Shown here piece by piece: positions 10,391 through 24,288 of a stretch of DNA of 64,000 nt. How positions within the stretch are numbered: position 1 is the stretch's first letter; each line of letters begins with the position of its first letter. Origin of the DNA: Candidatus Thorarchaeota archaeon (GTDB lineage Archaea; Asgardarchaeota; Thorarchaeia; Thorarchaeales; Thorarchaeaceae); contig JAGSHN010000016.1 in the NCBI GenBank assembly GCA_029855935.1, forward strand, positions 62,001 through 126,000, read 5' to 3'. Both the position numbers and the translations under genes were made by a program. The notes beneath the pieces are model-generated. The model did not search any database, was not told the DNA's origin, and worked only from the letters and a program-made list of their open reading frames with translations.

Positions 10391-11011
10391 TCAGACCTCT
10401 CTGCCGTCGTCATCCGTTGCCGGGACCATTGCCGGCCCGTCTATGACCACCGCATTGGTGCCATTCAGCATGAGGAAGCGACGCAGGTACTGTTCGTTGG
10501 ACAGTTGCAGGAGTACGATGCCCTTCCCTCTGTCAATCTTCAGCACGACGATCGCGCGCTCAAGAGCCCTCGGCAACGCAGAATACGCAACGAGGCCAGC
10601 CATCGACAATATCATGCCTGCAAGCAGTACGGCCGGAATCAGCACAGGACCGCCATAGCGAAGTGCCCGAATGGTTGCAAGGCTGAAGAACAGGATGGGA
10701 TACATCAGAATGAAGAATGCGACGGCCGCGACAAGCTTTGTTGTGGTCGTCCTCACACTGTGAGCGTGCATCTCACATACAGGGATGAGGAATGCCACCA
10801 TCCTATGAGGCTGGACTGTGGGTACGTGAGGACTGAATCCAGGTTGCCAGCTGGGATGGACGTTTGTGCTCTCAGAGGGCGCATCTGTCTCGGCAACCGT
10901 GAGTACTACTAGATCTTCAGGCTCCCCTAGACAGACAGGACAGGCCTCGGGCCATTTCAACTCAGAGAGTTTGCATCTCACTGTAGGGGCATTCTGTCGG
11001 CGCCACCTCAT
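10391..11011 (-). CDS. Zinc-motif membrane protein of unknown function
   Basis: 206 residues; ATG with GAGGAGAT upstream. The N-terminal ~85 residues are soluble with CPVC at about residue 25 and a second cysteine/histidine group IPVCEMHAH near 76-84, which could form a zinc site of the type C-x2-C...C-x2-H. Two membrane helices follow (about 90-115 and 120-143), then a cytosolic tail ending in a beta-rich piece (KIDRGKGIVLLQLSNEQYLR). I do not recognise a family. It is 20 bp downstream of the Alba-like gene on the same strand, so the two are probably co-transcribed. Confidence 0.7.
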   Translation of the reverse strand: MRWRRQNAPTVRCKLSELKWPEACPVCLGEPEDLVVLTVAETDAPSESTNVHPSWQPGFSPHVPTVQPHRMVAFLIPVCEMHAHSVRTTTTKLVAAVAFFILMYPILFFSLATIRALRYGGPVLIPAVLLAGMILSMAGLVAYSALPRALERAIVVLKIDRGKGIVLLQLSNEQYLRRFLMLNGTNAVVIDGPAMVPATDDDGREV

Positions 11012-11031
11012 GCAGAGATCTCCTCAGCCGC

Positions 11032-11424
11032 CTACGAGGAGTTCTTCTTCTCGTCCTCAGGCGGCATTATCACAATCTGGATGCTGGTGTGAGGTTTTCC
11101 CTCGCTGTCAGCGGCGTCGAAGGTGTCGAAGGCCATCTGGTAGATGAATCGTTTCTCCCGCTTCTTGATCTCGTGTGCGACGCGGACGGAGAGACCAACA
11201 CCTTTGAAGCCGTAGCCTCTGATGGCCACCATCCTACGGTCGTTCTTGACAAGATTGTGGACAGTGGCAGCTATCTTGCCGACATTGATGCGGCCAGCAC
11301 CTGGTGCTATCTCCAGCAGTACGTAGTCACTGGTGGGATAGACCTCCACCTCATTCTCCATCGTGATTGCAACTACCTCGTCGCCCACTCGAAGCGGCTC
11401 GGGAATCCTATCGTGGAGTGACAT
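11032..11424 (-). CDS. Alba-like small protein
   Basis: 130 residues from the ATG at 11424, which has GGGTGAT upstream. The open frame extends further back but without a good ribosome site. The central part runs INVGKIAATVHNLVKND, RRMVAIRGYGFKGVGLSVRVA, HEIKKREK, followed by HTSIQIVIMPPEDE. This copies the Alba fold order: helix, strand with R-G-x-A/G, helix of alternating hydrophobics, long hairpin, last strand. Alba proteins bind DNA or RNA in archaea. The N-terminal 40 residues (VGDEVVAITMENEVEVYPTS) are an extra beta-rich region not found in core Alba. The call rests on pattern only, so a related RNA-binding fold is possible. Confidence 0.55.
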   Translation of the reverse strand: MSLHDRIPEPLRVGDEVVAITMENEVEVYPTSDYVLLEIAPGAGRINVGKIAATVHNLVKNDRRMVAIRGYGFKGVGLSVRVAHEIKKREKRFIYQMAFDTFDAADSEGKPHTSIQIVIMPPEDEKKNSS

Positions 11425-11521
11425 GTCGATCACCCTTCTGGGCGGTCTCTGGTTGTGGTTGTGAACCTGACGCCATCGCTTATGATTGCGCAGATTGTTC
11501 ACGCAATGCCACTATCTTGCC

Positions 11522-11532
11522 CGTTATATACT
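11522..11532 (+). promoter_or_regulatory. TATA box of the ABC importer genes
   Basis: cgttatatact about 40 nt ahead of the ATG at 11566. The leader then carries GGAGAGG as ribosome site. Confidence 0.5.
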
Positions 11533-11565
11533 CTGAGGAAAGGGTGAATCCGGAGAGGAACGGCA

Positions 11566-12546
11566 ATGGAACGCAAGAAGACATACGCGCTGACGGTCGC
11601 CGTCATCGTGGTGGCCTCTGCGGCCCTTGTGGCACTGTGGTACCCGACGACGACCACGGATGTGCGAATCGGCTATCTCTCACAGGATCTTCATCAACTT
11701 GCTCTCAGAGTGGCCTTTGTCAAGGGCTGGTTCCAGGAGGCCGGTCTGAACGTGGAACTCGTACAGTTTCAGAACGGCGCATATGAGATGGATGGTTTTC
11801 TAGCAGGGCAGATAGACATGGGCTATCTTGGTGTCGCGCCGGCCCTCACGAAGTCGATAAGCCAGAACATATCAATCACAGTTCTCGCTGCTGCGAATCT
11901 GGAGGGCTCTGCGCTGATGGTGATGAAAGAGGAGTATGATGCAGGACGCATAACTCAGGTCAGTGACCTTGTTGGAAAGACGATTCTCCAGCCAGGTCCG
12001 TCCACTGTGCAGAACTTTCTGCTGCGTCTTGCGCTGAACCAGTCAGGTCTCTCTGTTGACGATGTCTTTCTGGAGACTGCAAGGGTACAGGACATGGGAA
12101 TCTCTCTGACGGCCGATAGACCTGCCTTCATCGCGTGGGAGCCATTCCCGGCGTTGGCCCAGGCCGAGGGTCAGGCCGTCCCTCTGCTGTTGTCGGGAGA
12201 CATATGGCCACGTCATCCGTGTTGCGTGGTGGCAAGTGGCAACACTTTCCTTGACGCCCACCCCGACATTGTTCAGAAGGTGGTAGAGATCCACAAGCGG
12301 GCCGAACAGTGGATTGTCAACAATCCTAGTGAGGCCCTTCAGATCGCCATCGATTGGCTCGGCATAGACCCCACTCCTGTCGAGACGGCATTCAACCGCA
12401 TCATCTACGACTTCAACGTGAATCGTACTGGTGTGGAGAGGTATCTGAGGTTCCTGATTGACCAGGGCCTGGTCAATATGGACCCCGGCAATGTCGATGG
12501 GTTCCTCGACTCCTTCATCGACACGTCATTCCTCGAGTCTGCCTGA
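11566..12546 (+). CDS. ABC importer substrate-binding protein (NMT1/SsuA-like)
   Basis: 326 residues. The N-terminal helix (YALTVAVIVVASAALVALWY) is an uncleaved anchor or signal. The mature domain begins VRIGYLSQDLHQLALRVAFVKGWFQEAGLNVELV and continues with QIDMGYLGVAPAL and GKTILQPGPSTVQNFLL, the pattern of the NMT1/SsuA/TauA/ThiY fold that captures sulfonates, nitrate, taurine or pyrimidine precursors. A double cysteine occurs at HPCCVVASG, where related proteins also carry cysteines. The neighbours are a matching permease (42 bp downstream) and an ATPase on the opposite strand. The substrate cannot be told from sequence. Confidence 0.88.
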   Translation: MERKKTYALTVAVIVVASAALVALWYPTTTTDVRIGYLSQDLHQLALRVAFVKGWFQEAGLNVELVQFQNGAYEMDGFLAGQIDMGYLGVAPALTKSISQNISITVLAAANLEGSALMVMKEEYDAGRITQVSDLVGKTILQPGPSTVQNFLLRLALNQSGLSVDDVFLETARVQDMGISLTADRPAFIAWEPFPALAQAEGQAVPLLLSGDIWPRHPCCVVASGNTFLDAHPDIVQKVVEIHKRAEQWIVNNPSEALQIAIDWLGIDPTPVETAFNRIIYDFNVNRTGVERYLRFLIDQGLVNMDPGNVDGFLDSFIDTSFLESA

Positions 12547-12588
12547 GCGACAGACACAAAAGATGGAGATGGCTCCGAGCGGACTGAG

Positions 12589-13416
12589 ATGCTGGACTCA
12601 CAGGTCGAATCTGAAAGGAGGCCCCAAGAGACCTCTCGCGCGTTGAACAGACAGATCCGACGACTGGTCATTCGGGGTCTTCTCCCATTTCTTATCGTAC
12701 TCGGTATCTGGCAGCTCGTCGCGTACCTTGCCCAGGGGATTGGACTTGTTGATGTCGCCACCGCGTTCGTCCGCCTGGTGGTGCAGGGCGACGCTGACGG
12801 TCGCACGCTTGGTCAACACACCGCCATGAGCGTGTATCGTGTCACGCTCGGATTCTTGGCCGCCATTGTGACGGGCGTGCCACTAGGCATAGCTGTGGGC
12901 AGATACAAGGTGGTGGACGCGATACTGGGACCAGTCATAGATGCCATGCGTCCCATCCCTCCCATTGCTTGGATACCACTGTCCATCCTGATGTTCCGCA
13001 CGAATATCACCGGTGCGCAGGTCTTCATCATCTGGATTGGCGCCTTCTTTCCAATTCTCATCAACACAACTGCGGGCGTCAAACGAACGGATCCCGTGCA
13101 TCTCGATGTGGCCCGTACGTTCGGTGCCACAGAGCGTCAAATACTCACGAAGGTGGTCCTACCGTCGGCCGCCCCTGAGATCTTCGCCGGTTTCCGAATC
13201 GGCTTTGGTATCGGCTGGATGTGTCTGGTGGCGGCAGAGATGATCGGCGGTGGTCTGGGCCTCGGCTATCTCGTGATAATCGCGGAGCAGCTCGGCCGGA
13301 CTGGCGAGACAATATCAGCGATGCTTGTCATAGGCGTGATAGGCTTCATCATAAGCTATGTCTTCCTGCAGATTGAGCGCAGGCTTCTCAGATGGAGGCG
13401 TGAGGTCTCTATCTAG
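12589..13416 (+). CDS. ABC importer permease (SsuC/TauC-like)
   Basis: 275 residues. About six membrane helices and the conserved cytoplasmic coupling loop (LDVARTFGATERQILTKVVLPSAAPEIFAGFRIG), which is the EAA motif of BPD_transp_1 permeases and docks on the ATPase. The N-terminal ~30 residues are polar and basic. The preceding substrate-binding gene and the convergent ATPase complete a SsuABC-type importer. The stop overlaps the end of the ATPase gene by 4 bp in convergent orientation, so the ATPase must have its own promoter. Confidence 0.92.
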   Translation: MLDSQVESERRPQETSRALNRQIRRLVIRGLLPFLIVLGIWQLVAYLAQGIGLVDVATAFVRLVVQGDADGRTLGQHTAMSVYRVTLGFLAAIVTGVPLGIAVGRYKVVDAILGPVIDAMRPIPPIAWIPLSILMFRTNITGAQVFIIWIGAFFPILINTTAGVKRTDPVHLDVARTFGATERQILTKVVLPSAAPEIFAGFRIGFGIGWMCLVAAEMIGGGLGLGYLVIIAEQLGRTGETISAMLVIGVIGFIISYVFLQIERRLLRWRREVSI

Positions 13417-14198
13417 GCCCCCTGACGCGCAAGGGCCTTCTCCTGTTCGACTCTCAGTGTATCAAGTATTCTTGCCCTATACTCCAGACACTGAGGGCTT
13501 GCACGCTTTCGTGGCCTCGGAATCTTCACGACGTACTCGTCGATTATCCTTGCAGGAACGTTGCTGAGGAGAAGTATGCGGTCCGACATAAAGACGGCCT
13601 CATCGACATTGTGTGTCACGAATATGACAGTCGAGCCTGTCTCCTGCCAGATTCTCAGAAACTCCTCCTGCAGGTAGTTCCTTGTCTGCGCATCGAGATT
13701 GGACAGTCCCTCATCGGCAACGAGGATGTCTGGAGAGGTCACGAGGCTCCGTGCCAACTCGGTCTTCCTCGCTTGCCCGCCTGAGATCTCGTGTGGCAGG
13801 TGATTCTCAAGTCCACGCATTCGAATCAGGTCGATCATCCTGTCCGAGAGCTGTCTTCTCTCCTCAGGCGGGACACCACGTATCTCAAGGCCGAACTCTA
13901 TGTTCTCACGGACAGTCCGCCACGGAAACAGGCTCTCCTGCTGGAAGATGTATCCAACACGGCTATGTCCGATCCCGACCACCTCACCGTCTATCATCAC
14001 CTCGCCCTCATCAGGCTCTAGCAGGCCCGCGACTATCTTTAGCAGCGTCGTCTTGCCACATCCCGATGGCCCTACAATGCTGAGGAACTCTCCCTCACGC
14101 ACTGTGAAAGAGATGCCATCGAGCACCCGCAAGACACCGTCGTCGTTCTCGAATGACTTGACTATGCCCCGAACGGTGAGCTTTGGTCGACCAGACAT
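13413..14198 (-). CDS. ABC importer ATPase (SsuB/TauB-like)
   Basis: 261 residues. Walker A GPSGCGKTT (near residue 43), Q-loop IFQQESLFPWRTV, signature SGGQARKTELARSL, Walker B DILVADEGLSNLD, and the switch His in VTHNVDEA. It is a full-length nucleotide-binding subunit of the nitrate/sulfonate/taurine group. The usual DEPF after Walker B is replaced by DEGLS and the signature has KTELA in place of QR-AIA; the catalytic Glu is kept. It is encoded opposite and convergent to the permease rather than in the usual cotranscribed order. Confidence 0.92.
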   Translation of the reverse strand: MSGRPKLTVRGIVKSFENDDGVLRVLDGISFTVREGEFLSIVGPSGCGKTTLLKIVAGLLEPDEGEVMIDGEVVGIGHSRVGYIFQQESLFPWRTVRENIEFGLEIRGVPPEERRQLSDRMIDLIRMRGLENHLPHEISGGQARKTELARSLVTSPDILVADEGLSNLDAQTRNYLQEEFLRIWQETGSTVIFVTHNVDEAVFMSDRILLLSNVPARIIDEYVVKIPRPRKRASPQCLEYRARILDTLRVEQEKALARQGA

Positions 14199-14337
14199 AG
14201 CCTGAGCCCTTTCAGAGTCTGTCTTATATGCTACGCTGTGGTCGCCGCGACTTCTCTCCGCCGTCTATGATGGTTCTGTGTAGTGCTCAAACCGGACTCG
14301 GCCTGTACTCACGAACGGGTAAGTCCGGGGTCGACCC

Positions 14338-14790
14338 TCATTCTGCGGGCGGGGATGGGACGGAGAACTCTCTCCAAGTGGCAATGACTGGGATGATGAC
14401 GAGTAGGAAGATCACCACATTCAGTATGACATTGATCCATACGGCGAAGAACATCGAGTAGCCAGTGTCGATGACGAACCAGAGGATGAGGCCTGAGAAC
14501 AGGCAGTCTCTTGCCCATCTCTCCCTTCTCTTGAATGGATACCGCGCTATGAACGTGGCAAACACGCCCCATCCAGCGACGGTAGCTCCCCATGCGCCAA
14601 AGACCCATCTCTGGAACATAGACACTCCCTCTGATGTGGTCTGGGAGCCAAAGAAGACGCTATTGATGCTTGTGTCAAACACGTTGAACACTATCGTACC
14701 ATTGAGGAATGCCATAAGCAGCCCAAAGAGTGTTATGATGACTCCGACGATGATCAGCCATCTCTGCCATAGATCGAATCCTGTCTTCAC
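14338..14790 (-). CDS. Four-helix membrane protein of unknown function
   Basis: 150 residues from the GTG at 14790, chosen because GGAGAGAAGGG lies directly ahead. An ATG at 14832 or GTG at 14853 would add up to 21 residues. Four hydrophobic helices are visible (LIIVGVIITLFGLLMAFL; VFGAWGATVAGWGVFATFI; LFSGLILWFVIDTGYSMFFA; WINVILNVVIFLLVIIPVI) with a basic loop YPFKRRERW between the second and third. No family is recognised. It stands alone between the ABC ATPase and a divergent GTPase gene. Confidence 0.65.
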   Translation of the reverse strand: MKTGFDLWQRWLIIVGVIITLFGLLMAFLNGTIVFNVFDTSINSVFFGSQTTSEGVSMFQRWVFGAWGATVAGWGVFATFIARYPFKRRERWARDCLFSGLILWFVIDTGYSMFFAVWINVILNVVIFLLVIIPVIATWREFSVPSPPAE

Positions 14791-15163
14791 CCCTTCTCTC
14801 CTCTCAACAGTGAATGCTGTGTACAGCGACATACCCCGACAGACCACCGCCACGGCCGTGTGGGCACATTAGACAGTCTTGACGTACATCCTCATAAGTA
14901 TGGCGAGTTCGCGCACCGAAATACAGATACCCCTTGGTATGTTGTTCATTCTTGAGGACCCTGATATCGTCAGACAAGGTGGTATGCGCCTTGTGTAGGC
15001 TCCTGCTCCTCCGAGGGGCTGATGGTGAAGATTGTGGGTGCGGTGATGGCAAGCGCACAAAGTACAAAAGGTTCTCGACAACGGAGATAGACTGAAGTCG
15101 GTGATGTTTAACGTACCATCAACAAGGTGTGGTACAGACCGATAGATTGGAAGGTATGTCGAA
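14791..15163. other. Intergenic region with divergent promoters
   Basis: 373 bp between the divergent membrane-protein and GTPase-fusion genes. A TATA-like gttta at about 15106-15112 lies ~55 nt ahead of the GTPase start. No other structure, RNA gene or convincing small frame is seen. Confidence 0.4.
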
Positions 15164-17506
15164 GTGGTGTCCCCGCGCATATTGATACAGCTCAGTGATG
15201 ATGTCAGCACGAGCGCAATCGCCGTAGGAGATGTCACCAGCTCTGGGCGGTCCGAGCTCTGTACGGGTGGCAGAGAGGGAGTGCTCAAGCTCTATGACGC
15301 CAACCAGAGCGAGGTTGCACTCTTGGCCCAGTCAGACCTTGGCGGCAGTATTCTATCAATCAGAATTGCGGATGCCAACAACGACGGCCAGATGGAGATT
15401 GTAGTAGCCAAGAGTCTCGCGCCGGGCGAGGAACCGGGCGTCGGGGGCACTCTTCAGGTCTACAGATACGCGCCCTCGGGCAGATTCGAGCTCTTGGCCC
15501 AGCATCCGATTGACAGATTCGTGACGACCCTTCAGGTCACGGATGTGACGGGTGACGGCAAGAATGAGATTCTCGCAGGAGGAAGCGACTCCACGTTGCG
15601 TATCCTCCGTATGACGCCTGACAATGAATTGACTGAAGTGGTCAATCACAGGCTGGAGGACATGCCGCTGACGATTGGCACCTGCGATGTCATTGGCGAC
15701 GAACATGAGGAGATTGTGATTGGGAATCGTGACAATACAATCCGAGTCCTCAAGTTCCAGAACGGCTCTGTGAAGGAGATAATGTGTCTTGATCTGCCAA
15801 GTCCTGTCATCTCCCTAGCATCGGGGGACCTTCTTGGTGACAGGAAGATGGAGCTCGGCGTTGTGACCCACGATGGCGCCATTCGCATCTATCGAAACGA
15901 GGAGAGTGAGCTTGAGCTATTCGCCAAGCTGGAGGGGGCGAATGCTCTCTCAATCCGCATCGCAGAGCTCAACGCGGACCATATGGATGAGATTGTGATT
16001 GCGACATCTGACTACAAGATCGAGTTCTATCATCTCTACATGGGTGAGCTGAAGCGGATTGCCTCAGTGGACATCGGAAAGAAGATACTGGCGCTGGCCG
16101 TCGGTGATGCTGGTGGCGATGACCGCAAAGAGGTGCTGGTGGGTATATCTAACGGTCCCCTCACGGTGATTCAGGGACTGTATGAGTTGATTCCGAAGTT
16201 CGAGGTAGTGCCCGCTGAGAATGGCGGGACTGGTCTGACTGGTCGGCTGAAGGTCATCAACGTGAGTGAGAGACCCGTATCGGGTGTCACCGGCAAGATA
16301 TACTGGTTCCCGAAGGAGATGATGGAGGTCAGTCCACAGCAGATCCGGATGGACCTCGGACCGCACGAGTCCAAGGTGGTCGAGATCAGGCTAATGCCCA
16401 AGGAACAGGGCACCATTGTAATTCGGCCCATTGTCCTGATGTGGACGGACGAGTCTGGTGATGTACGTCAGGTCACAACTCCTGAGACCGCCGTCCTTGT
16501 AGAGGAGGATGCGGTTGTCTCAGCACCAGCTGCCGAGCCGCCTGTTGTGGTCGAATCGGTTGAGGAGACGATTGCCTCGGAGTCGTCGACGGAGGAGCCG
16601 GCTGAGCTGCTCACCCCGACCGGTTTCACGCCCCTCACGGAGGACGAGAAGGCGGAGATTGAGGCCGAGGCGTCCGGAGTGGTCAGTGAAGACTCCCTCA
16701 AGGCTGCAGAGGCACTGCTTGACGAGCTCTTCGGTGAGGCCAGTGCAGAGGCAAAGGCTGCTCTCGAAGACGTCAAGTCTATGATGGAGGGAACTGGCGT
16801 TGGTGTCGATGCGGCTGTGACTGTCGAGGAGGGAGCCGCCCCGGCCGTTGAGGTGGAAGAGGTCACACCACCACCGTCTGCGGCAGTGGAGAGCGCACTG
16901 GTGACAGAGATAAAGAATCGCCAGCCGAAGCCGCCTCCCCCAAACGCGTCGCCCGACTCGTACAGTTATCTGTTCAAGGTTATGATCACCGGGGAGGGTG
17001 CGGTCGGAAAGACCACTCTTGTCAACAGGTATGTCACTGGCTCCTTCGAGCGAGACTACAAGACGACTATCGGCAGTCAGTTCGCCGTCAAATTGACCTA
17101 CATCTATCCACCTGAGTCTGAGTATGCTGTAGGGATCAAGATACAGGCCTGGGACGTGGCAGGTCAGGCACGTTTTGCAGCGGTCCGCAAGATGTACTAC
17201 AGTGGTGCCGCCGGAGTGATACTCGTCTATGATGTGACTCGACGTAGGTCCTTTACCGAGTTGGAGAAGTGGGTCAAGGAGGCTGATGAGTCCATAGGCG
17301 CAAGAGTGCCTATGGTGGTGGTCGGTAACAAGATTGACCTACCCGACAGAATGGTGTCTCCGGAGGAGGCGAAGAAATGGGCTGAAGACCACGGCTTTCT
17401 CTATATGGAGAGCAGCGCCAAGACGGGCGAGGGTGTGGCGGACATGTTCACGGTTCTTGCAGAGCTGATGTGGCGAGAGGCCACAAACAACACGGCGAAG
17501 AAGTGA
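15164..17506 (+). CDS. Beta-propeller / beta-sandwich / Ras-like GTPase fusion
   Basis: 780 residues, GTG start (a second GTG follows at once). Residues ~1-340 are seven or so FG-GAP/VCBS-like propeller blades with repeating phrases VTGDGKNEILAGG, VIGDEHEEIVIGN, LLGDRKMELGVVT, LNADHMDEIVIAT and AGGDDRKEVLVGI. Residues ~345-440 form a beta-sandwich (TGRLKVINVSERPVSGVTG). An acidic Ala/Glu/Val-rich linker (440-600) follows. Residues ~605-775 are a complete Rab/Ras-type GTPase: G1 GEGAVGKTT (610-618), G2 TTIGSQF, G3 WDVAGQ (663-668), G4 NKID (722-725), G5 SSAK (750-753). No C-terminal prenylation cysteine is present. The protein is cytoplasmic. The layout recalls eukaryotic propeller-plus-ear trafficking subunits joined to their GTPase (inference). 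Confidence 0.93.
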   Translation: MVSPRILIQLSDDVSTSAIAVGDVTSSGRSELCTGGREGVLKLYDANQSEVALLAQSDLGGSILSIRIADANNDGQMEIVVAKSLAPGEEPGVGGTLQVYRYAPSGRFELLAQHPIDRFVTTLQVTDVTGDGKNEILAGGSDSTLRILRMTPDNELTEVVNHRLEDMPLTIGTCDVIGDEHEEIVIGNRDNTIRVLKFQNGSVKEIMCLDLPSPVISLASGDLLGDRKMELGVVTHDGAIRIYRNEESELELFAKLEGANALSIRIAELNADHMDEIVIATSDYKIEFYHLYMGELKRIASVDIGKKILALAVGDAGGDDRKEVLVGISNGPLTVIQGLYELIPKFEVVPAENGGTGLTGRLKVINVSERPVSGVTGKIYWFPKEMMEVSPQQIRMDLGPHESKVVEIRLMPKEQGTIVIRPIVLMWTDESGDVRQVTTPETAVLVEEDAVVSAPAAEPPVVVESVEETIASESSTEEPAELLTPTGFTPLTEDEKAEIEAEASGVVSEDSLKAAEALLDELFGEASAEAKAALEDVKSMMEGTGVGVDAAVTVEEGAAPAVEVEEVTPPPSAAVESALVTEIKNRQPKPPPPNASPDSYSYLFKVMITGEGAVGKTTLVNRYVTGSFERDYKTTIGSQFAVKLTYIYPPESEYAVGIKIQAWDVAGQARFAAVRKMYYSGAAGVILVYDVTRRRSFTELEKWVKEADESIGARVPMVVVGNKIDLPDRMVSPEEAKKWAEDHGFLYMESSAKTGEGVADMFTVLAELMWREATNNTAKK

Positions 17507-17507
17507 G

Positions 17508-18131
17508 TCACTCTGTAGAAGTCCCCAGTACGGCCCTCCTCAACGCGAGTCCACGCTCAAAGGCCTGCAGGTTCATCTTCCTATCACCCGGCATGGTCTC
17601 AACACCCGCTCGAATGCTGGCCTCTGAAACCGGACTCCTATCCCAGCTGGCTAGGACTCCCAGCATGAGGGCGTTGAGCCTGCGCGCGCCCGTCCTCAAG
17701 CACTCCTTGCCGTCCAGCCAGAGAACTCTGCGGCAGAGATCCTTGAGTGCATGCCTCATCTCATCCAGGTCTGGGTATCTTCTGATACCTGAGAGCGTGT
17801 CGAGGGTCTCCACAATCCTTGGGCAGACTATTGCCTCGGTGCGCTGGCCTCCGAACTGAACGACTGCTCTGAGTGTCTCAAGAGGCTCTAGTCCGAGCAC
17901 AAGGTCGAGCTGTCCGCTGGGGATCAGCGGCCCGACCAAGTGGTTCTCGGACAGACGTATGTGCGTGAACACGGTACCCCCTCTTCGAGATGCTCCGAAT
18001 GTCTGTCCCACAACGGGCCGGAGCCCATCTCGGAGAGCGGCCTCGGCCACGACGCGGCTGCACACAAGGTTGCCCTGTCCTCCAACACCAGCCACAAGAA
18101 GATTGAATGCGTCATTACCCAACTGCGTCAC
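17508..18131 (-). CDS. iorB: Indolepyruvate:ferredoxin oxidoreductase, beta subunit
   Basis: 207 residues from a GTG that overlaps the iorA stop (GTGA). The longer frame inside iorA is not needed. The N-terminus LLVAGVGGQGNLVCSRVVAEA and FGASRRGGTVFTHIRLS are the conserved nucleotide and interface motifs of the gamma/beta domain of 2-oxoacid:acceptor oxidoreductases (IorB/PorC fold). With IorA it oxidatively decarboxylates aryl-pyruvates made from aromatic amino acids to aryl-acetyl-CoA, reducing ferredoxin. The end lies 1 bp from the end of the convergent GTPase gene. Confidence 0.93.
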   Translation of the reverse strand: MTQLGNDAFNLLVAGVGGQGNLVCSRVVAEAALRDGLRPVVGQTFGASRRGGTVFTHIRLSENHLVGPLIPSGQLDLVLGLEPLETLRAVVQFGGQRTEAIVCPRIVETLDTLSGIRRYPDLDEMRHALKDLCRRVLWLDGKECLRTGARRLNALMLGVLASWDRSPVSEASIRAGVETMPGDRKMNLQAFERGLALRRAVLGTSTE

Positions 18132-20020
18132 TCTCCGACAATCGCTCCGTGGGGGCACACATCGATACAGGCTCCACACCTGACACACTGGTCCTCTATC
18201 ACGTGCGGTCTATCACGATCCCAGTCCCAGGCCAGTGCTGTGCAGCGGTACTGCCCCACGCAGATTCTGCATCCTTGTCCCTTGCATAAGGCATCATCCA
18301 CAAAGACCCGAAGCCACCTAGTGATCAGTGAACCGCGGCGCTGGCGCTCAAGATAGCATGCTCCCTTGACGTGAACTACCTTGAGCCCACCAAGTCTCAC
18401 AGTGTCATACAGGATGTCTATCAGTTCGCCAATGCTCTCGCCATCAGCGTGAACATAGATGTCCGGTGCAATGCTCTCCACGAGGGCTCGGATGCTGACG
18501 GGCGTGGTGTCCTCTGTGTCGTCCCGTGTTCCGGGATGGGGCTGAAACCCTGTCATTGCTGTCGTCCCATTGTCGAGGATGAGAAATGTCAGGCTGGCAT
18601 TGTAATATCGGGCATTGACCAGTGCTGGTATGCACGCGTGAAAGAAGGTCGAGTCTCCCGTCACTGCGACAACAGGTGTGCGAAGTCCGAACCGCTGCAT
18701 CTGAGCAATGCCATTCGCTGTGCCTATCCCTGAGCCCATCGCCTGCATTGTGTCCATGGTGTTGTCATAGAAGACACCAAGTGAATAACAACCGATGTCA
18801 CCTGCGATGATGAGATTGCCTCCAAGGCGTTGCCGGACCCTCCTGAGTGCCCAGAATACATTGCGATGGGTGCATCCGGGGCAGAAGGTCAGCGGCCTGT
18901 CCACAAGCATCTCTCTTGCTCGGCTGAGTGCCTCGGCAGGGCGAACTGCCGTCTTGTCAGCCTGAGACCTTGCCACAGCGTCGGCTTCTACAAGGGCCTG
19001 AGACACAGTATCGGTGTCCATCTCGCCCCATGCTGGTACTGTCCCTGTCCTCTTCCCGTATAGGTCGACAGATAGCCTCTCGAGCCCGATGAGTACTCTC
19101 ACCTGCTCCTCGATGAATGGATCGGTCTCCTCCACGACAAGTAGTCTGCTGGCCGTTCTGGCGAATTCGCCGATCGTCCTCCTTGGCAATGGATACGTTG
19201 TCCCGAGGGAGAGAAGGCGCCACTCGTCGACACCTGATGACCGTAGTGCCTCTTCTGCATACAATCTGCAGACACCACTCGAGATCACTCCGAAGGGGTT
19301 CTCACTCCCTTCTGTGGTGATGGTCACATTCAGCGGCGAGTCCTCAAACTCTCTCTCCACGAGTTTCATCTTCCTGAGAAGATCTCTGTGACGGAGATGG
19401 GGGTCGGGGACATTGAAGAGGCCCCTAGGTAGCACCTGTCTCGACTGCCACGTCTCCTCACGTATCGATCCGACGATCACGGGCATTCTCGTATGGCTCA
19501 GACGGGTAGTGCTGCGTATCATCACGGGTATCTCGTATCGTTGTGACAAGTCAAGAGCATAGGAAATACCGTCCTTGGCCTGCTGTGCAGTGGCTGGCTC
19601 CAAAAGGGGTATCTCAGACGCCTTGGCATAGAAGCGCGAGTCCTGTTCGTTACTGGAGCTGTGCCCTCGCGGATCGTCGCACACCACAATAACAAGCCCC
19701 CCTTCGCCAGTGCCTGAGAGATTGAGGTTGAGCAGGAAGTCGGAGGCCACATTGAGACCCAGCGACTTCATTGAGCACAGAGCAGGAACACCCATCCAGC
19801 TGGCTCCGGCCGCCGTTTCCAGAGCAACCTTCTCGTTCGCGCTCCACTGTACGAAGGCCCGGCTGTTGCGCGTCAGCCGTGAGAACTCCGTTGCAATCTC
19901 TGTGGAGGGGGTACCAGGATACGTTGCCACCACTGCGATTCCCGCCTCGGCGGCGCCTCGTGCGATGGCCTCGTTGCCCGTCATCAGGCGGGCCTGCCTG
20001 TTCTCGGTCATCAGGTTCAC
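18128..20020 (-). CDS. iorA: Indolepyruvate:ferredoxin oxidoreductase, alpha subunit
   Basis: 630 residues, full length. The N-terminal pyrimidine-binding domain has MTGNEAIARGAAEAGIAVVATYPGTPSTEI and SSNEQDSRFYAK (split here as two motifs). The TPP domain has FCPGCTHRNVFWAL, GDIGCYSLG and GDSTFFH...NARYYNASLTFLILDNGTTAMTG. The C-terminal ferredoxin-like region has CVRCGACIDVCP and an upstream group CKGQGCRICVGQYRC. This matches archaeal IorA, the TPP- and Fe-S-carrying catalytic subunit. ATG 20020 is used; the ATG three codons later is equally possible. It forms an operon with iorB. Confidence 0.95.
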   Translation of the reverse strand: MNLMTENRQARLMTGNEAIARGAAEAGIAVVATYPGTPSTEIATEFSRLTRNSRAFVQWSANEKVALETAAGASWMGVPALCSMKSLGLNVASDFLLNLNLSGTGEGGLVIVVCDDPRGHSSSNEQDSRFYAKASEIPLLEPATAQQAKDGISYALDLSQRYEIPVMIRSTTRLSHTRMPVIVGSIREETWQSRQVLPRGLFNVPDPHLRHRDLLRKMKLVEREFEDSPLNVTITTEGSENPFGVISSGVCRLYAEEALRSSGVDEWRLLSLGTTYPLPRRTIGEFARTASRLLVVEETDPFIEEQVRVLIGLERLSVDLYGKRTGTVPAWGEMDTDTVSQALVEADAVARSQADKTAVRPAEALSRAREMLVDRPLTFCPGCTHRNVFWALRRVRQRLGGNLIIAGDIGCYSLGVFYDNTMDTMQAMGSGIGTANGIAQMQRFGLRTPVVAVTGDSTFFHACIPALVNARYYNASLTFLILDNGTTAMTGFQPHPGTRDDTEDTTPVSIRALVESIAPDIYVHADGESIGELIDILYDTVRLGGLKVVHVKGACYLERQRRGSLITRWLRVFVDDALCKGQGCRICVGQYRCTALAWDWDRDRPHVIEDQCVRCGACIDVCPHGAIVGE

Positions 20021-20235
20021 AGCACTCTCACGCGAGAGTTGTATCTCAAAATAGTTTCGAGAGCGGCGCTTGAATCAATATCTCTGCGGGTATGGTCGCG
20101 TTTCCCGTATCCAAGCAGACTCGGCTGTACTCTCAGGTGGGTCCACTTGTCAGTTGCTGCGCAGGTCCGGACCACGCTCTTTGGTTAGTTTCAAGGAAAC
20201 AGAAATATGTAGTGCGTGCAGGACACTAGACGGCG

Positions 20236-21351
20236 ATGACCGACTCAACCAGAACAGCGAGTCCTCGGTTTACACAGTGCTTTTCTATCTCTCACGACAA
20301 GGACGTCGATGGTCTCGTTTCAGCAGCAATAGTATGGCGCTATGCGAAGAAGAAGGGCCTGAAGCACTCACTTGAGCTGACAGACTACGGGTCATTCGAG
20401 TCGGCCTTCAAGAGGGTCGCAGAACTGAAGAACGCCCTCATAATAGTCACAGACCTGGGGCTTGATGACACCTCACGTGACACTGTTGTCGGTATCCTGC
20501 GCCGTGCCGTGACAAATGGTTGCAGAGTGGTTTGGCTTGACCACCACCAGTGGCCTGAGGTATCAATACGTGCAATCCTGAGTCTGAGAAACCGGACTGT
20601 CCTCAAGATCAATCACGGCTACTGTGCCTCCGAGATTGCTCACAAGGTACTGATGCCTAATGACAGCGTCTCTGCGGAACTGGCGAGGATCGCGCGTGAT
20701 ACGGACTTCAACGTCCGAGAGATCGAGGCGGCAACCGCTCTTACCGATGCCATCAATGTCTTGAGGTTTGCTGCCCTTGACAGAAAAGAGAACATCACCC
20801 TAGCGCTCTATCCTCTCGTGCAGCTTCTCGCCGAGGAGGGAATCTCAGGTGTCTGGGACGAGGCCAGGGGTCGCCTGAAGGATGATGTGCTCGCCAGACG
20901 TGTTGCGCACTACCGCAAGGAGAAACGAAAGAGGATGCGCAAGGCTCTCGAGGGGCATTGCGACTTTGAGATTCACGGCCGCCTCGTCAGGATAGTTGAG
21001 CTCCCTACAGGTGTCACAACCACAGACATGGGGACCTTTCTGTCGCAGCCTGAGAACCTCGTTGTCGGAAATAAGCAGCTCCCTGTTGCAGACCTTGTCA
21101 TCACCGTGGGTCAGGGTGGCAAGATTGGCTTCCGTCGCGGAAACGACTCCGTGAGATGCGATGCTGCAGCCAAGCTCTTCAATGGCGGTGGCCATCCATT
21201 CGCAGCGGGGGGTGACTACGGCACGTACAGCGACTTTACGGCTGTCTGTGACGACATATTTGTCACGCTCTCGAACAGCACAAGCTGGCTTGCCAAGGCG
21301 ACGGATGCCAGCGATGGTGGGTCGGGCTCATCTGCCCAGTCGGACAGATAA
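20236..21351 (+). CDS. DHH-family phosphoesterase (RecJ/NrnA-like)
   Basis: 371 residues. DHH-domain motifs: HDKDVDG (residues 20-26), TDLGLDD, and the name-giving DHH in WLDHHQWPE with IARDTDFNV afterwards. These supply the Asp/His ligands for two Mn ions. The C-terminal DHHA1 domain ends with the substrate-binding GGGHPFAAGG. The family includes archaeal RecJ-like exonucleases, nanoRNases and cyclic-dinucleotide phosphodiesterases. The ~370-residue length and lack of extra domains fit a RecJ-like or NrnA-like nuclease. It is transcribed alone, with a TATA-like aatatgta about 30 nt ahead of the ATG. Confidence 0.9.
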   Translation: MTDSTRTASPRFTQCFSISHDKDVDGLVSAAIVWRYAKKKGLKHSLELTDYGSFESAFKRVAELKNALIIVTDLGLDDTSRDTVVGILRRAVTNGCRVVWLDHHQWPEVSIRAILSLRNRTVLKINHGYCASEIAHKVLMPNDSVSAELARIARDTDFNVREIEAATALTDAINVLRFAALDRKENITLALYPLVQLLAEEGISGVWDEARGRLKDDVLARRVAHYRKEKRKRMRKALEGHCDFEIHGRLVRIVELPTGVTTTDMGTFLSQPENLVVGNKQLPVADLVITVGQGGKIGFRRGNDSVRCDAAAKLFNGGGHPFAAGGDYGTYSDFTAVCDDIFVTLSNSTSWLAKATDASDGGSGSSAQSDR

Positions 21352-21361
21352 GAATATTCGG

Positions 21362-22294
21362 CTAGTCTTCCGACTGCGGGGGAATCATCTGAACAGCATT
21401 CTCCCAAGCCGCCTCGAACACAGAGAGAAGGTCATCGATGAAGGCCTGCTGATGCGGGGCGAGAGCGAGTACCCCAACCTGTGGCGGATACGTATCATCG
21501 AGAATGAGCAAGGCCCTTGAGCGGTCAATTCCTATCGCAAGCGGTTTAGCCTCTCCACTCGTGTCGACCCTGACGACGAGGCCCTCGCGAAGCGGGGTTG
21601 CAATCCTTGTTCTTATGGCATCAATCACATTTCGTATGTCCACGGAGGTAGCTTTGCCGACCTTGTTCTGGGGAACTATGAGGACATGAAGTCTAGTTCT
21701 CCGTTCGAGCGTTGTCTGAGCCGCCTTTTGGAGCTGTATTATCCCGCCTCCACTATTGGGTAGTAGTGGAACTGGCGCTATGTGCCACACAGTCTCTCCA
21801 GGCCCGGCAGTCAGTAGGATGTTCTCTATCATGGCGGCACTAATCTCATCCTGGTTCCTCAGCAGCACGAAGCCACGTCTCTGGCGTGGCAGTCCTGCTG
21901 CCTGTGTCAGATGTGAATAGACAACCTCGCAATCAATCTGCGACAGCAGGTCAAGATCTCTCTCAAGCCTCTCCAGTTCTGCACTACGAATTTCCAGTTG
22001 TGACTTGAGGCGATGGTGAAGTCCTCTATTGAGATGACGGAGACTACTGTAGTAGAGATGCGGCTGCCGCACCTTGTCAATACCGACGAACCCCTCCTCC
22101 ACGAGTCTCTTCAGCGACTTGTATATCCAGTTCTTGGAGATCTTGGCCTTATTCCTTCTTGTGACCTCTCTGAATATGTTGTCGACAGTCACAGTCCGCC
22201 GATCACGTTCTGACAGTAGGAGCACGGCGGTGAGAACCTGCATCTCCGTGGACCCCAGGTCGATGCCCAGCAGGTCCAGCACATCGGTTTCCAT
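21362..22294 (-). CDS. TrmB-like HTH regulator, third of a tandem trio
   Basis: 310 residues. Residues ~10-75 are a winged helix (STEMQVLTAVLLL; DNIFREVTRRNKAKISKNWIYKSLKRLVEEGFV). A coiled coil follows (RLKSQLEIRSAELERLERDLDLLSQID), then a C-terminal alpha/beta domain (VWHIAPVPLL; RTRLHVLIVPQNKVG; ALLILDD) laid out like the PLD-like effector domain of TrmB proteins. It has the same architecture as the next two upstream genes. It is last in a three-gene operon and 27 bp from the second gene. The ligand and targets are unknown. Confidence 0.78.
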   Translation of the reverse strand: METDVLDLLGIDLGSTEMQVLTAVLLLSERDRRTVTVDNIFREVTRRNKAKISKNWIYKSLKRLVEEGFVGIDKVRQPHLYYSSLRHLNRGLHHRLKSQLEIRSAELERLERDLDLLSQIDCEVVYSHLTQAAGLPRQRRGFVLLRNQDEISAAMIENILLTAGPGETVWHIAPVPLLPNSGGGIIQLQKAAQTTLERRTRLHVLIVPQNKVGKATSVDIRNVIDAIRTRIATPLREGLVVRVDTSGEAKPLAIGIDRSRALLILDDTYPPQVGVLALAPHQQAFIDDLLSVFEAAWENAVQMIPPQSED

Positions 22295-22321
22295 ATTTGC
22301 GCTCGTCTCTCTCGACTCCTC

Positions 22322-23230
22322 TCATACCACATCGATTGGGGTGGCCCGACTGAATTCCTTGTCGAACGATTCTAACATTTCTTCGAGAAGCTCCGGACAG
22401 TCCTCGTAGGGAATGTACTGTGTGATCACGGGATTGATGGAGATCACAAGGATGATGGCGTGATTGTTCTTGGCGACGAATTGATGGAACCTTGATGGGC
22501 TCTGACGGTGACGTATGTCCATCCTTGCACCAGCGTCATGATCTTCTGCTATTCCTCTTGTGAGGGCCTCGAACAGATTCAGCCTCACGATGCTGGCTGG
22601 TGGGAGGAGAACTCTCAGCTCCACACCCCTGCTGAGAACACGCCCTACTTGCACCAGCATCGTTTCCATCGAAGCTGGGAACTCGTCCCTGACCTCAAGT
22701 GCAACTCGCAGGATGTCACCCCTCTGGAGCCCCTCGACAATCCTCGAATCAAACACTGCTCTGTCTTCGGATGTGTCTTCACGTGACTTTCGGCGCGACG
22801 GTCTTCGACCCGTCAGGGCCTGATACATTGCCTCCGACGCTCTGGAGAGGACAGTATCATCTTGACATAGGCCTCTCAGAATGTCAATCCCACTGGATAG
22901 CGTATCCATCTGCCCACTGATTCGTCGCCTCGTCCTCTGGATTGCCTCCTCAATCGCGCGTTCCACAGATGATGTCACCAGTCGATAGCTCTGCCGATAC
23001 GAGCCCCCCTCTCTGACAATGTACTCGTCTTTGACGAGGGAGGAAAGGGCCCTATACAGAGATGCCTTTGCACTCGCTGAGACCCTGTCGGTGAGCGCTC
23101 GCATCAGGAGGTCATTCGTCGTCAGTGGGGCTCCAGCTTGAGCGAGTACACGCAGTATCTTTTGACGGAGGCTTCCTGGTGACAGGTTCATTTCGCGCAG
23201 TATCCTATCAACAATCTCCTTGGCGTTCAT
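22322..23230 (-). CDS. TrmB-like HTH regulator, second of a tandem trio
   Basis: 302 residues from the ATG that overlaps the previous stop (ATGA). The N-terminal winged helix covers about 15-80 (LRQKILRVLAQAGAPLTTNDLLMRA; AKASLYRALSSLVKDEYIV). A helical hairpin follows (VERAIEEAIQRTRRRISGQMD), then a basic linker (GRRPSRRKSRED), then an effector domain with ILRVALEV, GVELRVLLPPASIVRLNLFEA and AIILVISINP. It shares fold order but little sequence with its neighbours. The C-terminal half resembles the sugar/PLD-like sensor of TrmB regulators. Confidence 0.78.
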   Translation of the reverse strand: MNAKEIVDRILREMNLSPGSLRQKILRVLAQAGAPLTTNDLLMRALTDRVSASAKASLYRALSSLVKDEYIVREGGSYRQSYRLVTSSVERAIEEAIQRTRRRISGQMDTLSSGIDILRGLCQDDTVLSRASEAMYQALTGRRPSRRKSREDTSEDRAVFDSRIVEGLQRGDILRVALEVRDEFPASMETMLVQVGRVLSRGVELRVLLPPASIVRLNLFEALTRGIAEDHDAGARMDIRHRQSPSRFHQFVAKNNHAIILVISINPVITQYIPYEDCPELLEEMLESFDKEFSRATPIDVV

Positions 23231-24288
23231 TCTGACATACACTCATCTCTTCTGTCATCCAGCCTTGGGCTGCTCTCCGCTGCGTGGAGTATCTCCGCCG
23301 CAGCTTCACTCGATTCGATACCGTTCTCTCTCAGCATTGACCGAGTGAGTTTCTCTAAGGGGAGAGCCTGTTTCCATACCCTGTCGAACCGCTCTACTAT
23401 TTGGTCGATGAGGTCCGCAGCATACTCTCGTGTCATCATTGTGGTCGCTATCGGCTCCTCCACGAGGATCAGTGCGACGGCATCTCGGTTGCGAATGACC
23501 GCATTGTATGCATCAGCCTCTCTGTGGAGTCTAATCTCAAACCTCAGGCCCTGCTTCCGCATCCTCCCTATCCCAACAATGAACTGGCCGACGGCCTGTG
23601 CAGTGGGTGCTCCGGGAACAATATCAATGACCCTCAGGAAACTGAACGGGGCAAGGTATCTGACCTCAGCACCCCTCTGCGCAGCCTCGATAAACTTCTT
23701 GGTGCGTTCAATTCCTCCCCGGACGAGCGGACGTGCAAAGGACGCCATCACTCTGATCACGTCCCCCCTACTCGCTGGTCTGGTGATGCCCTCCAGCACC
23801 AACTGGTGCATGCCGTCGGCGCCCTTTGCAAAACTCACAGTGGAGAACGCCTCAGTTCCAACGATTGACTGGGCAATCCTCTCCCCGAGCTTCGAGCAGT
23901 CAATCTGCCGCAGCATCTCCAATTGGCGCTCTATCCGGTTTCTCTCCGCCTCCAGTTGCTCCACAACTGTCGAATGGAGTCGATGCAGTCCTGCAATCAG
24001 TGATGTGGTGCTGATTGAGTATTTCTTTCTCTGTGCGCCGCGACCGCTGACACGTACGACACCCGCTTCCTTGAGGAGCTTCAGGTCCCTATAGATGCAG
24101 GTCCGACTGGGAACGTCATCAGGGCGGAGTCTCTGTATCGCGTCATATATCTCGTGGAACTGTTGTGGTCTCTTCTGGATCTGCTGAGTCCTCATCATGG
24201 ATCTGACGAGCTCGAGAAGCCTCTTCGTCCGTTTCTTGGAGAGGTCCACACCGAGCAGTCTCAGCTGCTCAATCTCATGTTCTTCCAA
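23227..24288 (-). CDS. TrmB-like HTH regulator, first of a tandem trio
   Basis: 353 residues. An N-terminal helical segment is followed by a winged helix (HEIYDAIQRLRPDDVPSRTCIYRDLKLLKEAGVVRV, written in full over 50-85), a coiled coil (VVEQLEAERNRIERQLEMLRQID; the ...LRQIDC end matches LLSQIDC in the third regulator) and an effector domain (DVIRVMASFARPLVRGGIER; GAEVRYLAPFSFLRVIDIVP; AVALILVEEP). It leads the operon of three homologous regulators. The shared coiled-coil/effector layout suggests they may hetero-oligomerise (inference). Confidence 0.8.
   Translation of the reverse strand: MEEHEIEQLRLLGVDLSKKRTKRLLELVRSMMRTQQIQKRPQQFHEIYDAIQRLRPDDVPSRTCIYRDLKLLKEAGVVRVSGRGAQRKKYSISTTSLIAGLHRLHSTVVEQLEAERNRIERQLEMLRQIDCSKLGERIAQSIVGTEAFSTVSFAKGADGMHQLVLEGITRPASRGDVIRVMASFARPLVRGGIERTKKFIEAAQRGAEVRYLAPFSFLRVIDIVPGAPTAQAVGQFIVGIGRMRKQGLRFEIRLHREADAYNAVIRNRDAVALILVEEPIATTMMTREYAADLIDQIVERFDRVWKQALPLEKLTRSMLRENGIESSEAAAEILHAAESSPRLDDRRDECMSE

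Follow-up and report, generated by a model that had tools for sequence, protein, structure and literature searches.

Domain organisation of the fusion gene

The window, a stretch of 64,000 nucleotides from a genome that its named relatives place in the Thorarchaeia, contains at 15164-17506 (+) a single complete open reading frame with a GTG start, as given by the ORF list of the window. The encoded 780-residue protein comprises, from N- to C-terminus, a seven-bladed FG-GAP-type propeller, an Ig-like β-sandwich, an acidic disordered linker and a complete Rab-like GTPase. Pfam matches over cut-off include FG-GAP_3, BBS7-type and BBS2-type propeller profiles and the Ras-family GTPase. The first-pass annotation had read a propeller, an ear-like sandwich, an acidic linker and a five-motif GTPase in one frame, an arrangement borne out by Pfam, AlphaFold2 (AF2) and a motif scan. 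The features are as follows.

15164..17506 (+): fusion gene, propeller-ear-linker-Rab-like GTPase, 780 aa; open reading frame, full-length conservation across 13 genera
15176..16177 (+): seven-bladed FG-GAP/BBS-type β-propeller, residues 5-338; Pfam FG-GAP_3, BBS7 and BBS2_Mid, seven loop motifs, AF2
16184..16522 (+): ear-like Ig-fold β-sandwich, residues 341-453; AF2 strands 342-454, weak ASH profile match in 10/10 members
16523..16963 (+): acidic disordered linker, residues 454-600; 33 Asp/Glu versus 7 Lys/Arg, pLDDT < 50 over most of its length
16694..16735 (+): conserved linker helix LKAAEALLDELFGE, residues 511-524; mean pairwise identity 0.78 versus 0.21-0.31 in the flanking linker
16886..16963 (+): second conserved linker island ESALVTEIKNRQPKPPPP..., residues 575-600; mean pairwise identity 0.64
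16964..17479 (+): Rab-like GTPase domain, residues 601-772, five G motifs; Pfam Ras 157.8 bits, best PDB match Thor-Rab 7ezb
16991..17014 (+): P-loop (G1) GEGAVGKT, residues 610-617; invariant in 15/15 aligned sequences

The AF2 model of residues 1-455, obtained with 15 aligned sequences (pLDDT 90.1, pTM 0.85), displays seven three- or four-stranded repeats, with the propeller spanning residues ~6-336. An acidic blade-loop motif is present in exactly seven copies, at residues 23, 70, 127, 175, 222, 268 and 315 (spacing of 46-57 residues), and FG-GAP_3 covers five stretches of the propeller (78.5 bits). According to the AF2 strand order, the N-terminal strand 6-14 is left over and completes the last blade as its outer strand; loop motifs and model together reveal the BBSome-family trait of seven blades in which the first strand closes the last blade. 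BBSome propellers are closed by an N-terminal strand in the same manner (PMC7018513). The first propeller strand starts at residue 5-6, and inspection by eye of the N-terminus, MVSPRILIQLSDD..., identified no signal peptide or lipobox and no hydrophobic leader, a character conserved in 15 sequences. No membrane anchor was found in the protein, which is most likely cytosolic.

The ear comprises about ten strands at residues 342-454, all β and predicted with high confidence, and its presence in the AF2 model rules out a lipoprotein-type propeller lacking an ear, the outcome named beforehand as fatal to the proposed architecture. No Pfam family scores above cut-off for this domain. ASH (PF15780) is weakly matched by all ten aligned members (best E=3.8e-5), the window member reaching 13.2 bits against a curated cut-off of 27 bits, and other Ig-like families are matched by some members. 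Sequence comparison of the ear with the PDB gave chance-level matches only, and no sequence link to GAE was observed; its sequence leans towards ASH, a class of MSP-like Ig sandwich domains. Since OCRL1 binds Rab8a via an α-helix and the adjacent ASH domain (PMC4094338), the weak ASH match makes an ear-GTPase contact a reasonable hypothesis, no more. Within the linker helix, A515, E516, L518, L519, L522, F523 and G524 are invariant in the full-length alignment.

The GTPase matches Pfam Ras at residues 605-768. Besides the P-loop, it presents G2 (T634/T635), G3 (WDVAGQ, 663-668), G4 (NKID, 722-725) and G5 (SAK, 751-753), with Q668 occupying the position of the catalytic glutamine; GTP binding and hydrolysis are predicted from these intact motifs. 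Thor-Rab ranks first among PDB matches (7ezb, E=4e-45), followed by Rab14, Sec4 and Rab8. The earlier comparison with an Arf/Rab switch therefore holds for Rab but not for Arf. The chain ends in ...WREATNNTAKK and lacks a prenylation cysteine, no cysteine being present in the aligned C-termini, and any membrane attachment would have to involve partners. Thor-Rab likewise lacks a prenylated extension (PMC10933270).

Conservation, origin and genomic setting

The full N-terminal part was found in 41 of the 47 family genomes and in all 13 genera, and the fusion was present in 13/13 genomes of a high-quality subset (≥90% complete, ≤5% contaminated). A propeller-ear query at low stringency matched 46/47 family genomes, a count that includes a separate 338-aa paralogue. 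Across the 13 genera, propeller-ear copies are 60-78% identical and their frames run on into the GTPase; frame lengths are 757-807 aa, a small number of frames being shorter, mostly at contig ends. Mean pairwise identity in the full-length alignment is 0.75 for the propeller, 0.65 for the ear, 0.38 for the linker and 0.84 for the GTPase. Values of dN/dS, calculated from close pairs with unsaturated synonymous sites, lie at about 0.02-0.06 for propeller, ear and GTPase and reach about 0.2 for the linker. The fusion gene is under strong purifying selection. Conservation and low dN/dS together identify the fusion as a genuine gene under selection rather than an error of assembly.

A scan of named records, pattern-seeded such that remote relatives would escape it, recovered 31 archaeal records, which with few exceptions carry the label Thorarchaeota, and a single generic propeller from a deltaproteobacterium. 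With the fusion in 41/47 family genomes and these 31 records, its confinement to one assembly, the other outcome that would have spoken against it, can be dismissed. By the same token, it is extremely improbable that the gene is an assembly chimera or that a secreted lipoprotein-type propeller reads through into a GTPase gene: the sole argument for this is that such fusions are rare in general, and the idea is refuted by the conserved domain order, with the absent signal peptide and early first strand also against it.

In 181 other Asgard genomes the fusion gave no match at E≤1e-25. Thus, of the domain order that the first-pass annotation proposed to seek elsewhere in Asgard, the propeller type is shared by other Asgard genomes and the fusion was not found. 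Long-frame Rab-like matches in other Asgard were considered as the same fusion and rejected, as the eight such GTPases read have an N-terminal GTPase and a disordered tail, most with a terminal zinc ribbon. These proteins, from other Asgard families (L137-L144), are Rab-like GTPases whose long disordered tails are proline-rich and mostly end in the ribbon (CxxC...CxxC).

In a maximum-likelihood tree built from 37 GTPase domains, the 11 fused domains fell into one clade (support 100/100, recovered in all 200 bootstrap trees), with a free thorarchaeal Rab-like GTPase as its sister (88/83). The tree is midpoint-rooted and some free rows are long-branched, making the sister relation less sure than the single clade. 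With all fused GTPases in a single clade, a single origin of the fusion is probable; most simply, the ancestor shared by the group would have undergone a single duplication and a single fusion. A free-standing propeller-ear representing the pre-fusion state was sought in Asgard genomes with the ear profile and none was found; this profile alone identifies only the Thorarchaeia family and two genomes of family f11. The f11 ear-like domain forms the C-terminus of an unrelated 520-aa helical protein with a weak TRAP_beta match (L115:3307-4869 (-) and L116:2784-4346 (+)), and L116 also has an Arf-like GTPase gene two genes from it.

In about 26-29 of the 31 named loci, the fusion gene is flanked on one side by an ABC transporter (solute-binding protein, permease, ATPase) and on the other by IorB-IorA, after which a DHH gene comes in most cases. 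The gene order of window positions 10391-21351 is kept across Thorarchaeia (DUF genes, solute-binding protein, permease, ATPase, fusion, IorB, IorA, DHH), and the match between loci ends abruptly after 21351 (beyond about 21.4 kb). No counterpart of the membrane protein at 14338-14853 was found in the other loci compared. Positions 21362-24288 (-) contain three successive genes for winged-helix regulator-like proteins, each about 310-350 aa long; the first weakly matches TrmB, and the three are mostly missing at the same place in relatives. No trafficking gene lies beside the fusion, its conserved neighbours being the ABC transporter, IorAB and the DHH protein. Because the neighbours are on both strands, this represents linkage and not an operon.

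Structural similarity to BBSome subunits

A Foldseek search against the PDB using the AF2 model of residues 1-455 placed BBS2, BBS9, BBS7 and BBS1 at ranks 1-10, with E values from 3.5e-18 (BBS2) to 6e-13, followed by ITFG2 (2.1e-12) and integrin alpha6 (2.3e-12). A second, full-length model repeats this ranking (BBS subunits at ranks 1-9, E 3.4e-21). The proposed fold search against BBS1/2/7/9 thus returned those four subunits on top in both models, across propeller and ear. Alignments with the BBS subunits extend over 470-535 columns, compared with 353 for the propeller-only ITFG2, which indicates that they include the ear, although integrin and other multi-domain chains also reach that length. 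The rmsd of the BBS superposition is 21 Å, showing that propeller and ear are arranged differently from those of the BBS subunits. In the predicted models, these observations support a "BBSome-like adaptor with built-in switch" as an architecture.

Other BBSome elements were not observed. No heterodimerisation helix (hx) is present between residues 336 and 342 in the AF2 model, and the platform and C-terminal coiled coil of BBS2/7/9 are absent, the ear being followed by the disordered linker instead. BBS1 itself lacks the platform and C-terminal coiled coil. The fusion scores 54.7 bits with PF23743 (BBS7) and 53 bits with PF14783 (BBS2_Mid), and PF23743 matches only two genes in its own genome and none in 14 well-known prokaryotic control genomes. 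An extracellular thorarchaeal TSP3 propeller (L030), which unlike the fusion protein bears a hydrophobic leader, reaches 36.6 bits with PF23743 and 51.5 bits with BBS2_Mid, and its PDB match to BBS2 has an E value of 1.9e-5. In another Asgard genome, a winged-helix propeller (L149) scores 88.6 bits with BBS7 and 48.6 bits with PF14783, and matches ITFG2 in the PDB (E=2.4e-9). The BBS Pfam matches were therefore rejected as proof of kinship, these controls scoring as well or better. Since both also match BBS/ITFG2, Asgard archaea hold a broad set of BBS7/ITFG2-type propellers of which the fusion is one branch. The specific part of the BBS likeness would be the succession of propeller and Ig-like ear, as judged from the fold search alone. 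Of the BBSome-type comparison drawn beforehand, the fold and the domain pair were upheld and the Arf-like GTPase was not; neither was kinship by descent supported, given the unspecific Pfam matches and the three missing domains.

Related propellers were observed in the same searches. The L149 protein (L149:961-2637; also L155, L156, L157, L159, L147 and L163) belongs to cytosolic propellers of other Asgard genomes that are followed by winged-helix-like repeats; by sequence, propellers of this type are a possible archaeal source of the eukaryotic BBS7/ITFG2 propellers. On contig C8 of the fusion's own genome, a free 338-aa BBS7-type propeller without evident signal peptide (L029:1434-2450 (-)) has same-size relatives in nearly every family genome and is possibly a partner or paralogue of the fusion.

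Proposed mechanism and relation to known systems

The preferred reading, to which a probability of about 0.5 is assigned, is that the fusion is a cytosolic GTP-switched adaptor or scaffold that carries its Rab-type switch within the chain. Propeller and Ig-like ear would form a protein-binding platform, with the GTPase carried on an acidic disordered tether of ~145 residues. Depending on its nucleotide state, the GTPase would dock on the propeller/ear of the same chain, on that of a neighbour in the case of ear dimerisation, or on an outside partner, and docking would set the exposure of cargo or partner sites; the conserved linker helix may act as a second docking motif. GTP cycling, docking in cis or trans, the cargo or partner role and any membrane association are all predicted features. 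ARL6-GTP binds the BBS1 propeller at blades 1 and 7 (PMC7018513), which provides a precedent for the adaptor model, and OCRL1 provides another because here too a weak ASH-type ear and conserved linker islands precede the Rab domain. Domain anatomy, the fold search, the single clade and class-wide retention of the fusion and the closeness of the GTPase to Thor-Rab also favour this model. Against it, the full-length AF2 model displays no docked interface (pTM 0.52, linker pLDDT < 50, GTPase itself of low confidence), and a membrane anchor, a prenyl cysteine and an adjacent trafficking gene are all lacking. Propellers bind almost anything, and the platform role is therefore weakly constrained.

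RCC1-type propellers are exchange factors for Ran, and the propeller or ear might instead be a built-in exchange factor or GAP-like clamp for the fused GTPase, which alone would provide the output. The fusion would fix the stoichiometry of such a pair, and the GTPase, a derived copy of a thorarchaeal Rab, is the most conserved part. However, the propeller is FG-GAP/BBS-type and not RCC1-type, propeller and ear are also strongly conserved and bigger than a regulator needs, and no contact is predicted in the full-length model; a built-in regulator is thus rather unlikely. A KICSTOR/ITFG2-like nutrient-signalling scaffold with a Rag-type switch, converting uptake or metabolic state into a GTPase signal and not into cargo movement, is likewise rather unlikely. 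ITFG2 is the best PDB match by sequence profile (E=1.9e-6) and follows the BBS subunits by fold (rmsd 4 Å), and the neighbourhood, a conserved block with the ABC transporter and IorAB, lends mild support. Against this, the GTPase is Rab-like and not Rag-like, the ITFG2 alignment ends at ~353 columns and so lacks the ear, and linkage of neighbours on both strands may reflect mere slow rearrangement.

True descent from the ancestor of BBS1/2/7/9, the protein being a proto-BBSome subunit that gained its GTPase by fusion, is unlikely. It would account for the four BBS subunits topping both fold searches over propeller and ear, for the seven blades closed by an N-terminal strand as in the BBSome and for the PF23743 score over cut-off with 0/14 control genomes matching, but BBS profiles also match the extracellular L030 (BBS2_Mid) and match L149 better (BBS7), the hx helix, platform and coiled coil are lacking and the ear has no sequence link to GAE. 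BBSome ancestry is compatible with the adaptor model, and the likelihoods given here are not mutually exclusive.

In eukaryotes, the small GTPases that recruit coats and the BBSome are separate proteins. The protein could be a single-chain relative of the BBSome/coat-adaptor ancestor, namely an archaeal propeller-GAE adaptor carrying its own recruiting GTPase; this is unlikely, and if true GTPase recruitment of adaptors would predate eukaryotes and be found here in one chain. The class-wide Thorarchaeia protein joins a propeller-ear resembling cilia cargo adaptors to its own Rab-like switch, which are separate proteins in eukaryotes, and this pair in one soluble chain constitutes a testable model for adaptor-GTPase pairing. 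No description of a propeller-ear-Rab fusion was found in the literature searched, which left out supplementary files, preprints and most subscription papers, and its absence is provisional. The heimdallarchaeial-ancestry paper describes adaptor, COPI, retromer and other trafficking homologues, its main text mentioning neither a propeller nor BBS (PMC10307638), and the same holds for a 2026 review (PMC12993045).

Among known systems, BBS2, BBS7, BBS9 and BBS1 of the BBSome (PDB codes 6vbu, 6vbv, 6voa, 6xt9) share the N-strand-closed seven-bladed propeller followed by an Ig-like sandwich, as well as the pairing of a propeller with a small GTPase (ARL6 on BBS1). They differ from the fusion in the hx helix, platform and coiled coil that it lacks, in identity (10-14%) and in their Arf-like GTPase, which acts in trans, whereas the Rab-like GTPase of the fusion resides in the same chain. 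KICSTOR ITFG2 (PDB codes 9v6e, 9o5a) is the closest PDB propeller by sequence profile, its rmsd of 4 Å being that of a single domain, but the match covers the propeller only, without ear or GTPase. The OCRL1-Rab8a complex (PMC4094338) similarly combines an Ig-like ASH-type domain, a neighbouring helix and a Rab GTPase, although its Rab is a separate protein and the ear of the fusion remains below the ASH Pfam cut-off. Thor-Rab (7ezb) is the closest known match to the GTPase domain. Published Asgard fusions of GTPases with longin or roadblock domains (PMC10933270) also join a small GTPase to another domain. Three proteins of the fusion's own genome (L168, L169, L170), with longin-like N-terminal extensions on Arf/Rag-like GTPases and acidic or further C-terminal domains, resemble the longin type. 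In contrast, the partner in the present fusion is a propeller-ear, the GTPase is C-terminal and the protein was found only in Thorarchaeia; Asgard GTPase fusions thus extend past the published longin and roadblock types.
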